The position numbers and the translations under genes were made by a program. Under the pieces are notes generated by a model. The model worked only from the letters and a program-made list of their open reading frames with translations, ran no database searches and was not told where the DNA came from. Positions 5,685 through 26,522 of a stretch of DNA of 26,817 nt are shown here, one piece after another; the first letter of the stretch is position 1, and every line of letters begins with the position of its first letter. This DNA comes from a virus: IMG/VR virus record IMGVR_UViG_3300047667_000677, positions 1 through 26,817 of that record. One strand, written 5' to 3'.

Positions 5685-6383
5685 ATGGTAAATAATCCAG
5701 ACGGTAAGGCAAGAGGCGGTAGCGGTGGGGGTAGTGCCGCTGGTGCTACTCCAACTACGCCCATCAACAGCGGTGTAGGCAACCAAGGCGGCTTAGTAAA
5801 CAACTGGGACGGCACTACTGCTGTCTCATGGGAAACTTGGCAAAGCCAATTAGCCTTCGCTAGAGAAGCGGGAGCGCCCAGAGAAACCAAAGCCAGAAGT
5901 AGCGAAGATGCTAGATACTGGTATGATAACTACGTCACTCAATGGAACGCTGCCTCAGTTGAAGGCCGCAATGCTCTTGACGAACAACACAGTTTTGCAT
6001 TAGTTCCAGAAGTGGCGGCAACCGCACCATCTGGTGGTGGCGGTGGTGGAGGTGGAGGTGGATCAGCCCCACCAAAAGATGTAGTTGATCCAATAGTATC
6101 TGACCCTGTAATCTCTCCCGTTGATGGCGACGATACAAACGAGGGTTCTGACATGACCCCAGAAGACAACGACATCATTGATGAAGAACTTGATGATGCA
6201 GTAGTCGACCCATCTCAAGACAAAGACGAGAACGACGAAAACGACACAGTGCTTACTGTTCGGGATGTAACTCCAGAAGATGCAGTAGTCGACCCTGCAA
6301 CAGGACAAAGATACGCCACCCCAGAAGCGGCTAGACAAGCGGGGATAACTAATTGGGTCTGGGCTTCAGACTACACAGGTTAA
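5685..6383 (+). CDS. Glycine-rich acidic protein between terminase and portal
   Basis: 232 residues, not recognised. The N-terminus is Gly/Ser-rich. A short folded-looking part (about residues 35-110, with conserved-looking Trp residues in WDGTTAVSWETWQSQLAFA) leads to a run of ten glycines. A highly acidic segment follows (about 130-200). The C-terminus DPATGQRYATPEAARQAGIT plus NWVWASDYTG looks like a small docking motif. The phrase DAVVDP is duplicated by a 17-bp direct repeat. The position in the terminase-portal gap and the low-complexity linker suggest a virion accessory or head-associated protein, which is inference from place alone. No transmembrane segment is seen. Confidence 0.8.
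   Translation: MVNNPDGKARGGSGGGSAAGATPTTPINSGVGNQGGLVNNWDGTTAVSWETWQSQLAFAREAGAPRETKARSSEDARYWYDNYVTQWNAASVEGRNALDEQHSFALVPEVAATAPSGGGGGGGGGGSAPPKDVVDPIVSDPVISPVDGDDTNEGSDMTPEDNDIIDEELDDAVVDPSQDKDENDENDTVLTVRDVTPEDAVVDPATGQRYATPEAARQAGITNWVWASDYTG
6195..6295 (+). repeat. 17-bp direct repeat within the acidic linker gene
   Basis: GATGCAGTAGTCGACCC occurs at 6195-6211 and 6279-6295, 84 bp apart, which is 28 codons in frame. It encodes DAVVDP twice and could allow in-frame contraction by recombination. Confidence 0.7.
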
Positions 6384-6388
6384 TTAAA

Positions 6389-7987
6389 ATGCAAGAAGAT
6401 AAAGATGCAGTAAGAATAATCGCAGTCTACAACAAGCTAAAGACGGGTCGCAAGAACTGGGAAACTTACTGGGAGTACATATCTCAATACGCAGCACCCA
6501 ATAAAAGCTCGTTCATTGAGAAGCGAGCGCAAGGCGACATGACAAGAGCCAACCAGATATTTGACGGTACGGCAGGGAGAGCAGCCAGATTACTAGCAAG
6601 CTCGATCATTGGCGCTGTCTTTACTGGCAAGTGGTTTGGCTTACGACTCCGAGGCGTGGACTCAGACAGTGATGTTTGGAGTGCTTGGCTAGAGGAAGTG
6701 ACAGAAACAATGCTTGCTGCGTTTGAAGACTCTAACTTTCTTGTTCAGATAGGTCAGGACATATTTAGCATGGTCACGTTTGGTACTTCTGGCCTTTCAG
6801 TTGAACAGAACAGTGATGACCAGATTTTTGACAAACTCATATTCAAGGACAATCATTTAAGCACCTTTGTCTTTGATGAAGGCTCAGATGGCATTCCAAA
6901 TAGGATTTATCGTGAGATTATGATGTCGCCAGAAGCGGCTCTTGATCGGTATTTAGACCACCCGCTTGTGCCTACTGAGATTATAGATGACTTCAAAAAG
7001 AAAGTAGAGATGAAGTCTCATAGCCCCCTCAAGTTTGTAGAGGCTATTGAGCCAACTACCCTACTTTCTAGCGCAGACAGAGAAGAAGGAAACTTTAAGG
7101 TTTCTCTCGTTTATGCCACTGAAAAGAAAGATATGTTTGCTTCATACGTTGAGGACTTGCCAATGCTTGTTTCTCGATGGGATAAGATTACTGGTGATGT
7201 GTACGGCTGGTCGCCTTGCATGACAGCTATGCCAGACATCCTCACGATTAATGAAGTAGATCGACTCGAGTTGGGCGCGTGGGAAAAGAACATACTCCCA
7301 CCCAAAGAGATCGTAGTAGGCACTCTACTCAACGGAAAACTAAACCGTGGGGTTAATGGCGTTACAATCGTAAACAGAGCAGGGGCAATCAACAACATTG
7401 ATGAACCGTTTAGCTTTAGAAACAGCCATATCAAAGCAGAGAATGTTAGAGAGTCAATTAAGTCTGCATTCCATGAGCAAGAGCTAATACTTCCAGACAG
7501 AAGTCACGACACAGCAACAGAGGTTCGTATTCGCTACGACCTTATGCAGCGATTGTTAGGCGCAACATTTGGGCGAATCAAGTCTGAGAAACTACAGCCG
7601 CTAATCAATCGCGTATTTAGAATAATGTACGATGGCGGCGCATTCCCTCCAATTCCAGAAGACGGCACTCAGTCAGATATTGCGGTGGAATACTTATCTC
7701 CACTGGCTAAATCTCAGAGAGCGTCAGAGGTTGAGGCTACTATGCAACTATCAAACTGGATACAGCAGCTTTCAGCAATGAATCCCAAGGTTATGCTTGG
7801 CTTTGATGAACACGCAGCAGGTCAAGTCTTGGCAGATGGCTTAGGCGTACCGACAAAAGTATGGAAAGACAAGAAAGCCTATGACGCTGCAATTGAAAAA
7901 GCTCAACAAGAAGCCATGCAGCAACAGCAACAGCAACAGCAGCATGAGAAAACCCTGAAGAACGGAGAACAAATTGAAGAAGAATAA
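6389..7987 (+). CDS. Portal (head-to-tail connecting) protein
   Basis: About 532 residues, the T7 gp8-type portal that forms the dodecameric ring at the capsid vertex. The N-terminus (IAVYNKLKTGRKNWETYWEY, then ISQYAAPN) and the segment DGTAGRAARLLASSIIG are typical of Head-tail_con family portals. I start it at ATG 6389 (MQEDKDAV) with AGGT upstream, not at an in-frame ATG 36 bases earlier that lies inside the preceding gene and has no ribosome binding site. The C-terminal tail contains eight consecutive glutamines from alternating CAG/CAA codons (7919-7942) and an acidic end. Such tails usually project into the capsid. It overlaps the next gene by 14 bases. Confidence 0.95.
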   Translation: MQEDKDAVRIIAVYNKLKTGRKNWETYWEYISQYAAPNKSSFIEKRAQGDMTRANQIFDGTAGRAARLLASSIIGAVFTGKWFGLRLRGVDSDSDVWSAWLEEVTETMLAAFEDSNFLVQIGQDIFSMVTFGTSGLSVEQNSDDQIFDKLIFKDNHLSTFVFDEGSDGIPNRIYREIMMSPEAALDRYLDHPLVPTEIIDDFKKKVEMKSHSPLKFVEAIEPTTLLSSADREEGNFKVSLVYATEKKDMFASYVEDLPMLVSRWDKITGDVYGWSPCMTAMPDILTINEVDRLELGAWEKNILPPKEIVVGTLLNGKLNRGVNGVTIVNRAGAINNIDEPFSFRNSHIKAENVRESIKSAFHEQELILPDRSHDTATEVRIRYDLMQRLLGATFGRIKSEKLQPLINRVFRIMYDGGAFPPIPEDGTQSDIAVEYLSPLAKSQRASEVEATMQLSNWIQQLSAMNPKVMLGFDEHAAGQVLADGLGVPTKVWKDKKAYDAAIEKAQQEAMQQQQQQQQHEKTLKNGEQIEEE

Positions 7988-24356: not shown

Positions 24357-24710
24357 ATGATTATAGGAAATTTAATAATGGGTGCAGCTAACGGGGTCAG
24401 CGATTGGGTTGCCAATACTCTTCTTATGCCTCTTGTGTATTTTTTGTTTGCGTCCTTAGCTGCCGTAGTCGTGGTTGTCTATGACCATGACAAGACACTA
24501 GCAATGGGGGAGGCAACAGCGGGCGTTGAGATTGGAATTAAAAATAAACAGCTTGAAGCTCAAGAGGTATTGAATGCAACACTCTTGGTCTACATTAGGG
24601 CTAACGAGAAAAGGCTATACCAGCTTGAGCAAGACGGGGCTTTGGATAAACAGAGCATAGCCAACATAGATAAATCTTTAAAAAGAATTGAAAAGGCGGT
24701 TGGAAGATGA
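24357..24710 (+). CDS. Membrane-anchored coiled-coil lysis protein (holin or inner-membrane spanin candidate)
   Basis: 117 residues. One strong transmembrane segment (LLMPLVYFLFASLAAVVVVV, about 22-41) follows a short amphipathic N-terminus. Then comes a charged helix rich in Glu/Lys with a heptad-like end (RLYQLEQDGALDKQSIANID, KSLKRIEKAVG). This N-anchor plus coiled coil is the layout of an inner-membrane spanin, but single-TM holins look the same at this level. GGAATGG lies upstream of the ATG. Its stop overlaps the endolysin ATG by four bases, so it is made together with the endolysin and belongs to the lysis cassette. Confidence 0.75.
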   Translation: MIIGNLIMGAANGVSDWVANTLLMPLVYFLFASLAAVVVVVYDHDKTLAMGEATAGVEIGIKNKQLEAQEVLNATLLVYIRANEKRLYQLEQDGALDKQSIANIDKSLKRIEKAVGR

Positions 24711-25138
24711 TGATTAGTCCTAACTTTAATATGCAAGAGCTTATTGCAAGCAAATACGCAGAAAGGAATGGAATTGACAATACTCCCAACGGAGAGGCCA
24801 TGAAGAACCTTGTCAGGATTGCATATACGCTAGAAATTATCAGGAACGATTTAGGCTCTCCTGTAATTATATCTAGTGGATACCGTTGCCCAGCAGTAAA
24901 CAATGGGGTGGGTGGCTCTAGCCGATCTAAACACATGCAAGGCTTGGCTGTAGACTTCACTGTTGTAGGCTATACTCCACCGCAAGTAGTAGAAAGAATA
25001 CGCAATCTAGTAGGTTATGATAAACTGATACTGGAGTTTGATCGGTGGATTCATCTAGGTTTGTCGAGCAATTTAAGGCATGAAGTCTTAGTTGCAAGGA
25101 AGGTAGACAATTTAACAATATACGAGATATTACCATGA
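24707..25138 (+). CDS. Endolysin, peptidase M15 family
   Basis: 143 residues with the full M15A zinc-peptidase signature: SGYRCPAVN (57-65), SKHMQGLAVDF with His 76 and Asp 83, and WIHLGL with His 116. These are the metal ligands (the third histidine closes the site) of enzymes cutting the peptide stems of peptidoglycan, usually as an L-alanyl-D-glutamate or D-Ala-D-Ala peptidase; which bond is unknown here. There is no signal or SAR anchor, so it should need a holin to reach the wall. The gene sits between the membrane protein and a lipoprotein and overlaps both by four bases. Confidence 0.93.
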   Translation: MMISPNFNMQELIASKYAERNGIDNTPNGEAMKNLVRIAYTLEIIRNDLGSPVIISSGYRCPAVNNGVGGSSRSKHMQGLAVDFTVVGYTPPQVVERIRNLVGYDKLILEFDRWIHLGLSSNLRHEVLVARKVDNLTIYEILP

Positions 25139-25947
25139 AATATTTAAAGCACTTATTATTGATGTTAGTCCTAACTATGACGGCAGCTTGCGCTCAGTTT
25201 GGGGCGAAGGTCGAAACCTCGGATGGTCGCACTATCCCCCAAGAAGCGTACATTGCTGAGAAACAGTTTGAAGCTGAAAAGGCTTGCTATGAAAGCAAAA
25301 AGCCCACGATGCTTCCAATGAGTCAGAACATAAGTGCCGCTGAGGCCGTTGCAATAGCGATGGGTAATGTCATGGCTATGATGGTAGCGGCTGAGACACC
25401 ATGCGGTAGCACCAACGTAAACGACGTAAGAATTGCACAAGCCAAGGCTCGATGGGGGTTTGGTGGCGCACTTGTTCGTGGGGTTGCGGTGGGTTACGGA
25501 GTCGGTCAGATTACAGACTTCGGTATAGCGTTGGCTAATGCGAAGGGTCAGACATACAACACCGATTTATCTGGCGTAAGGCAAAGCAATGGAGGCACTA
25601 GCACTGGTAGCTCAGGCGGTAGTGATGGCTCTATTTCTGGCGAAGAATTGGCAGACAGCAATATCCCATCTCAGGGTGATACTGTAAGCCAATCCAGTGA
25701 GGGCATATCAACGAACACTATCAATATTGGGGGCAATGTAGCTGTTTCGGGTGAACGTGCCGCAGCGGGGCAACAGGCGCTTCTCAATGGGGATAACGCG
25801 CTTATATCTTCAATAGTGGATAGCGAGTTAAAGCAATCGCCTACTGGTGAGAATCAGGAGGGGCTTCAGAACTCCAATGATGTTCAAGACGAAGCGGTTG
25901 GTGGCTTTCAAGATGATGATGGTGGAAACGGAGTATTGGATTTCTGA
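25135..25947 (+). CDS. Lipoprotein of the lysis cassette
   Basis: 270 residues beginning with a signal peptide (KYLKHLLLMLVLTMTAAC). The lipobox TAAC places the lipidated residue at Cys 19, so the mature protein should lie in a membrane of a Gram-negative envelope. An Ala/Met-rich hydrophobic helix (AEAVAIAMGNVMAMMVAA, about 69-86) and a second Gly/Val-rich one (FGGALVRGVAVGYGVGQI) follow. The second half is Ser/Gly/Asn-rich and disordered-looking and ends acidic. It could be an outer-membrane spanin subunit partnering the coiled-coil protein, but it is longer than most. I do not recognise the family. It overlaps the endolysin by four bases. Confidence 0.8.
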   Translation: MKYLKHLLLMLVLTMTAACAQFGAKVETSDGRTIPQEAYIAEKQFEAEKACYESKKPTMLPMSQNISAAEAVAIAMGNVMAMMVAAETPCGSTNVNDVRIAQAKARWGFGGALVRGVAVGYGVGQITDFGIALANAKGQTYNTDLSGVRQSNGGTSTGSSGGSDGSISGEELADSNIPSQGDTVSQSSEGISTNTINIGGNVAVSGERAAAGQQALLNGDNALISSIVDSELKQSPTGENQEGLQNSNDVQDEAVGGFQDDDGGNGVLDF

Positions 25948-26522
25948 TGAAACCAGTTCTATTAGTTCACGGCATTGGCAATGATGGTGGAACACTGTTT
26001 GCGTTTGGCGCTAAGTTAGAGCGAATGGGACACAATGTTAGATACTACCGCTATGAGCAGCGTCACTTTTGGTCATATTGGTTTGAACCTAACATGCGGC
26101 ATGATGGAGCTAGTCTTCTGCATTCTGACCATTACGAGGACGGTATGGACGTTATCGCACACTCAAATGGTCAGCTAGTCGTGCAGTCGGCTGTCAAACA
26201 GGGAGCAAGATTTGGCAAGGTGATTATATTCAGTGGGGCGGGAACGTCTGACCAGTTTGTTTGGCCTTCGTGGTCTATGGAGGAATGTCACTGGTTTGTT
26301 AACACAAAGGACAAAGCGGTGTGGTGGGGGTCTTTACTCCCATCACACCCCTTCGGCAAGGCAGCAAGAATCGGATACGCTGGCGTTAGGGATAACAGAC
26401 ACAAGAATCATAAATACGTGTGGGCTAAATTGTTTAATAGCGACCACTCGTTCTGGTTCAAAGAGTTTGCCAATCAGATGCTTGAGAAAGTAGGGATCAT
26501 ACGGTTTGGCTCTAAGGATTAG
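25947..26522 (+). CDS. Alpha/beta-hydrolase (lipase/esterase-like)
   Basis: 191 residues, a compact serine hydrolase. The N-terminal strand and oxyanion motif is VLLVHGIGNDGG (4-15). The nucleophile elbow reads DVIAHSNGQ with Ser 73 (A-H-S-N-G in place of G-x-S-x-G). A late strand ends in NTKDKAVWWGSLLP with Asp 122 as the likely acid, and NSDHSFWF supplies His 167. Such enzymes hydrolyse lipid or other esters, and the substrate here is unknown. Being the last gene of the lysis cassette, translationally linked by TGATG to a lipoprotein, suggests an envelope-disrupting role comparable in concept to mycobacteriophage LysB, though no relation is claimed. There is no signal peptide. Confidence 0.88.
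   Translation: MKPVLLVHGIGNDGGTLFAFGAKLERMGHNVRYYRYEQRHFWSYWFEPNMRHDGASLLHSDHYEDGMDVIAHSNGQLVVQSAVKQGARFGKVIIFSGAGTSDQFVWPSWSMEECHWFVNTKDKAVWWGSLLPSHPFGKAARIGYAGVRDNRHKNHKYVWAKLFNSDHSFWFKEFANQMLEKVGIIRFGSKD

Follow-up and report, generated by a model that had tools for sequence, protein, structure and literature searches.

Lysis of Gram-negative hosts by phages is taught as the work of a holin, an endolysin and a spanin. In a 2018 survey, 91 of 677 phages (about 13%) had no spanins, and another lysis route was called for (PMC6139136). The mycobacteriophage mycolylarabinogalactan esterase LysB is presented in two reports (PMC5707550, PMC6116114) as a serine esterase of the lysis cassette that acts on the outer lipid layer. 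In the open-access literature, no report was found of an alpha/beta hydrolase in the lysis cassette of a Gram-negative phage. A candidate for such a gene was studied in a window of 26,817 nucleotides, which is the whole stretch of viral DNA that was analysed, and the hydrolase family to which it was assigned (A6) has not been described before, as far as could be found in the same literature.

The source phage is a marine podovirus. In a Pfam search of the window proteins, the capsid (PF19821, E 4e-73) and the portal (PF12236, E 1e-85) placed it among the podoviruses, and phages of Pelagibacter, Vibrio and Alteromonas were among the relatives found in a capsid search. The IMG/VR contig 3300047666_000645 (L071, which is G001:1-12000, and L002) belongs to the same phage; it matches the right and left ends of the window at 100% and therefore spans about 11 kb that are absent from the window. 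An internal protein of 755 aa gave a weak match to an ADP-ribosyltransferase (ART-PolyVal, E 0.0022, below the cutoff).

On the plus strand, a transmembrane (TM) protein, an M15 endolysin, a lipoprotein-like protein and the hydrolase are encoded in this order by one coupled run of four genes (Table 1). The TM protein and endolysin genes overlap by 4 nt, as do the endolysin and lipoprotein genes, and the lipoprotein and hydrolase genes overlap by 1 nt (TGATG). The sequence-only reading had placed a serine hydrolase at the end of a lysis cassette, downstream of the endolysin and translationally linked to a lipoprotein, and in each of these points it was borne out. The hydrolase is the final gene of the plus-strand cassette because the next gene, which encodes a small lipoprotein with an LTAC lipobox, lies on the minus strand. 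This small gene is convergent with the hydrolase gene, and their 3' ends overlap by 4 nt. A scan of the cassette for sigma-70 promoters did not rise above chance, and the cassette showed no terminator. The TM protein, which had no match in a Pfam search, has a single strong TM segment at residues 23-41, and the hydrophilic tail behind it is probably a coiled coil. The tail of the 270-aa lipoprotein-like protein is of low complexity; these two proteins could be a spanin pair. Short proteins with an N-terminal TM segment and a coiled-coil-like tail, also candidate holins or i-spanins, were observed upstream of the endolysins in the counterpart loci L212, L204 and L072.

Table 1. Positions of the genes and predicted functional residues in the window.
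Feature	Position	Strand	Basis
Internal protein, 755 aa	16092..18359		weak match, see text
TM protein, 117 aa; candidate holin or i-spanin	24357..24710	+	hydropathy
M15 endolysin (D,D-peptidase type)	24707..25138	+	Pfam PF08291, E 6.6e-25; PHROG 894 endolysin, E 9.3e-36
Lipoprotein-like protein, 270 aa, in o-spanin-like position	25135..25947	+	N-terminal hydrophobic stretch, then TAAC (imperfect lipobox)
Lipase-like alpha/beta hydrolase (predicted), 191 aa	25947..26522	+	ATG start; family alignment, model
His8-Gly9, conserved HG after strand 1; probable oxyanion-hole region	25968..25973	+	invariant in A6
Ser73, predicted nucleophile (AHSNG elbow)	26163..26165	+	invariant in A6
Asp122, predicted catalytic acid after strand 113-119	26310..26312	+	12 of 13 members (Glu in L140); strand from model
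Signature after the acid, P-S-H-P-F-G-K-A-A-R-I-G-Y-A-G	26340..26384	+	G137 and G143 invariant in A6
His167, predicted catalytic histidine, then invariant Ser168	26445..26447	+	invariant in A6
Small lipoprotein, 76 aa	26519..26749	-	LTAC lipobox

With the single hydrolase protein as query, nothing usable came from Pfam (best E 0.079), PHROGs or NCBIfam, nothing relevant from PDB sequences, nothing from an IMG/VR scan with its own peptides and no match from 50,697 phages and 72,556 plasmids. Related contigs were obtained by a search with the capsid, and one of them, G003, bears a close copy of the hydrolase (67-69% identity). Relatives were also sought with a degenerate DNA pattern encoding D-[VIM]-[VIM]-A-H-S-N-G, which recovered one more close copy, L138/G051, and the phage hydrolases L140 and L134, both of them distant. 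Through L140, gene 060 of Shewanella phage S0112, annotated as 'alpha/beta hydrolase', was reached, and thus one family member sits in an isolated phage. Gene 060 led to nine more IMG/VR loci, of which L210 and L211 encode the same protein. With the family profile, two full copies were found in gammaproteobacterial genomes (L220 and L221), each adjoining a GH108 endolysin and each probably part of a prophage; a search of Alphaproteobacteria with this profile, run without a positive control, gave 0 of 385. A scan of genome contigs with A2 gave no family members. Many matches of the HSNG scan, with MAHSNGRD (phage) or VAHSNGSYYF (bacterial), were rejected as non-hydrolases, as they lack HG and the remainder of the pattern.

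The resulting family is diverse and has at least 16 members. When the three close copies were aligned with ten distant ones by hhalign, a probability of 98.9 and an E-value of 1.1e-17 were obtained over 162 columns; the part of this match that lies beyond the search motif is independent evidence that the close and distant subgroups are related. Scattered weak matches of family members to Hydrolase_4, Ser_hydrolase, DUF900 and Lipase_2 were found, and L140 alone was seen to exceed a curated cutoff (Pfam Lipase_2, 21.1 versus 20.3 bits). The window protein had no match to Lipase_2 (PF01674) at E<=1 and did not reach its gathering score. Its enzyme class is clear, yet it falls outside current Pfam families.

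In the A6 alignment of 13 rows, HG, HSxG, an acid at Asp122, [FW]G..xxG and HS are conserved, and H8-G9, H72-S73, G75, G137, G143 and H167-S168 are invariant. The window protein follows the family pattern HG ... HS[ND]G ... D/E ... [FW]G ... G ... HS, in which the part after the acid reads P-x(n)-[FW]-G-x-[AM]-[AG]-x-x-G. By sequence, a putative nucleophile elbow (Sm-x-Ser-x-Gly), an acid and a histidine occur in this order in the 13 members. The triad proposed from the DNA (Ser 73, Asp 122, His 167) agrees with the codons and with their conservation across the alignment. The AHSNG elbow that had been called unusual is present, but it is not odd inside the family, as HSNG occurs in all but one A6 member.

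The copies in G003 and G051 are 67-68% identical to the window hydrolase (69-70% over the BLAST alignment) and hold the same gene position, and comparison with them gave dN of 0.25-0.32 with saturated dS. Purifying selection is evident from these alignments. With two close homologues at the same place in other phages and with such values, the reading frame did not arise by chance. Neither a signal peptide nor a TM segment was seen in the 191-aa protein by hydropathy. Its pI is 9.3 and 15.7% of its residues are aromatic, including nine Trp; the large virion and packaging proteins of the window have acidic pI and 5-11% aromatic residues. This basic, aromatic-rich composition is weakly suggestive of a protein that would suit an anionic membrane surface.

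The fold was predicted by AlphaFold2. With the hydrolase sequence alone, pLDDT was 33.6 and pTM 0.23, and this model was discarded; with the family alignment, pLDDT was 79.8 and pTM 0.82. The absence of a hydrolase fold in such a prediction had been named in advance as evidence against the assignment; an alpha/beta-hydrolase fold was obtained, and the top PDB matches were alpha/beta hydrolases. The best solved match in Foldseek was 1i6w, a B. subtilis lipase described as 'a minimal alpha/beta hydrolase'. In VIA-align, this lipase (LipA) scored Z 13.6 over 157 residues with 17% identity and was tied with the esterase 1zoi (13.8), an A. fulgidus lipase and RBBP9/YdeN, the minimal hydrolases lying within 1 Z. 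According to the model, therefore, the protein is a minimal alpha/beta hydrolase with a LipA-like fold. Since esterases, thioesterases and peptidases also have this fold, the substrate cannot be read from it.

LipA, the best structural match and a Lipase_2 (PF01674) enzyme, resembles the window protein in its minimal fold, its similar size (about 180 aa) and its Ser-Asp-His triad; its elbow is AHSMG (A-H-S-x-G), and it has an HGIG-like oxyanion motif. It differs in being secreted and bacterial, and the conserved stretch that follows the acid in the phage family is peculiar to that family. The comparison with lipases and LysB that had been suggested thus gave a lipase match, and LysB was absent among the 50 structural matches listed, which is no evidence against kinship and does not exclude it. 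Searches by tblastn in phages and by PHROGs gave no match between the two either. LysB is larger, has the elbow GYSQG and faces another host envelope. The likeness lies in position, the gene following that of the endolysin within the lysis cassette, and in chemistry; the hydrolase may work like LysB in these two respects, and kinship is not claimed.

The placement in a lysis cassette recurs in unrelated phages and putative prophages. In nine of 13 lineages, a known or predicted peptidoglycan hydrolase was found at most two genes from the hydrolase (neighbouring genes were called by longest ORF and checked in Pfam, and several contigs are short). It is an M15 enzyme in the window, L208 (M15, TM, hydrolase) and L211 (TM, M15, hydrolase), DUF5675 in L209 (DUF5675, TM, hydrolase) and L213 (TM, DUF5675, hydrolase, lipoprotein), a GH24 lysozyme in L212 (TM, GH24, opposite-strand HNH, hydrolase), GH108 in L220/L221 (hydrolase, GH108), a weak M15-like protein in L214 (M15-like, TM, hydrolase, lipoprotein) and an annotated endolysin in S0112 (hydrolase, small ORF, endolysin). 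A lipoprotein gene adjoins the hydrolase in the window, G003, G051, L213, L214 and L215. A crude binomial test of the linkage gave p ~2e-6 for nine of 13, and p ~0.002 when only the firmest endolysins were counted (6/13), both under the assumptions of independent lineages and a guessed background of 12%. Since the partner enzymes cut different bonds, the target of the hydrolase is probably not one particular peptidoglycan bond, and the hydrolase probably has a target of its own, apart from that of its partner.

Four lineages, some of them short contigs, had no recognised peptidoglycan hydrolase nearby: L134, L215 (TM, lipoprotein, hydrolase), L207, in which the copy lies between tail and terminase genes, and L140, from a T7-like podovirus, in which it is flanked by scaffold and capsid genes (6383-6970, minus strand), an unusual spot for a lysis gene.

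What computation shows is the fold, the triad, the family, the operon and a linkage that recurs with differing peptidoglycan hydrolases, and the reading somewhat favoured on this basis is that the protein is an accessory lipase or esterase of envelope lipids, released by the holin at lysis. As no TM segment was seen by hydropathy and the modelled chain opens straight at strand 1, the hydrolase would stay in the cytoplasm until the holin acts; given the missing export signal, it would accumulate there together with the endolysin and cross the inner membrane via the holin lesion. In the periplasm, it would hydrolyse the acyl esters of envelope lipids, most probably those of phospholipid and possibly those of lipid A or lipoproteins, and the outer membrane would be weakened alongside the action of the endolysin and the neighbouring lipoprotein. 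By analogy, such a role would make it for Gram-negative outer membranes what LysB is for the mycobacterial one. The proposed step, an outer-membrane breach after endolysin action, is the one assigned to spanins (Rz/Rz1, u-spanins), which are membrane-anchored and non-enzymatic, whereas the window protein is a predicted soluble hydrolase. The hydrolase may be dispensable because most neighbour phages also carry lipoprotein or TM genes, possibly ordinary spanins. A broader proposal is made only tentatively and is rather doubtful: the enzyme would be a lipolytic lysis protein widespread among Gram-negative phages, able to open the outer membrane from inside by hydrolysing its lipids and to replace or assist spanins; if true, this would explain how some phages in which no spanins are recognised escape. 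With its ties to lysis genes in phages that are unrelated, the hydrolase family offers a concrete candidate, open to testing, for a step in which an enzyme acts on the outer membrane.

The sequence-only reading had named outer-membrane lipid and O-acyl or O-acetyl groups as possible targets, and had also allowed that the protein may reprogram host lipid or serve adsorption. A passenger metabolic enzyme, such as a cytosolic lysophospholipase, thioesterase or small-ester hydrolase that is expressed late with the lysis operon and has no direct role in lysis, would alter host lipids or detoxify a metabolite. The lack of a secretion signal, a fold common to thioesterases and esterases and the copies in L140 and L207 away from recognised lysis genes are consistent with it. 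However, endolysins too are often without signals, and a passenger would hardly be expected to turn up time and again beside endolysins of several chemistries in phages that are unrelated, which makes this alternative unlikely. Linkage to peptidoglycan hydrolases would also be expected of a de-O-acylase that strips O-acetyl groups from peptidoglycan, LPS or capsule, thereby improving endolysin action or preventing virions from rebinding to debris. M15 endopeptidases do not cut the glycan strand, and therefore deacetylation would be of little help to the M15 partners in the window and in two further lineages; moreover, lipases and esterases lead the structure matches. Such an activity is accordingly quite improbable.

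Gene 060 of S0112 bears on the remaining alternative. Its product belongs to A6 and is followed, after the small ORF, by the putative endolysin 062; it differs from the window hydrolase in its length (225 aa; about 22% identity) and in coming from a siphovirus. The position of L140 and the listing of gene 060 under structure/morphogenesis by the S0112 authors would point to an enzyme of the virion, of entry or of superinfection exclusion, with the receptor or the entry path as its target. This is very improbable, since most family copies are in lysis cassettes and a virion or adsorption role is weakened by mass spectrometry of S0112 virions, in which neither S0112_060 nor the endolysin was detected, low abundance being offered as a reason for all undetected proteins (PMC6893657, Table 4).

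The genes of the cassette differ in their conservation among the close relatives. The window endolysin is about 55% identical to those of G003 and G051, while the lipoprotein and TM protein had no significant similarity to their counterparts in BLAST, though the lipoprotein position is the same. The capsid of G051 is only 35% identical to that of the window, which points to movement of lysis genes from phage to phage. An HNH-like nuclease gene was observed immediately downstream of the hydrolase gene in L072 (5890-6426) and L204 (15-551); the nuclease is 86.5% identical between G003 and G051, whereas their hydrolases are 62% identical. It is possible that this nuclease is a mobile passenger of the lysis region.
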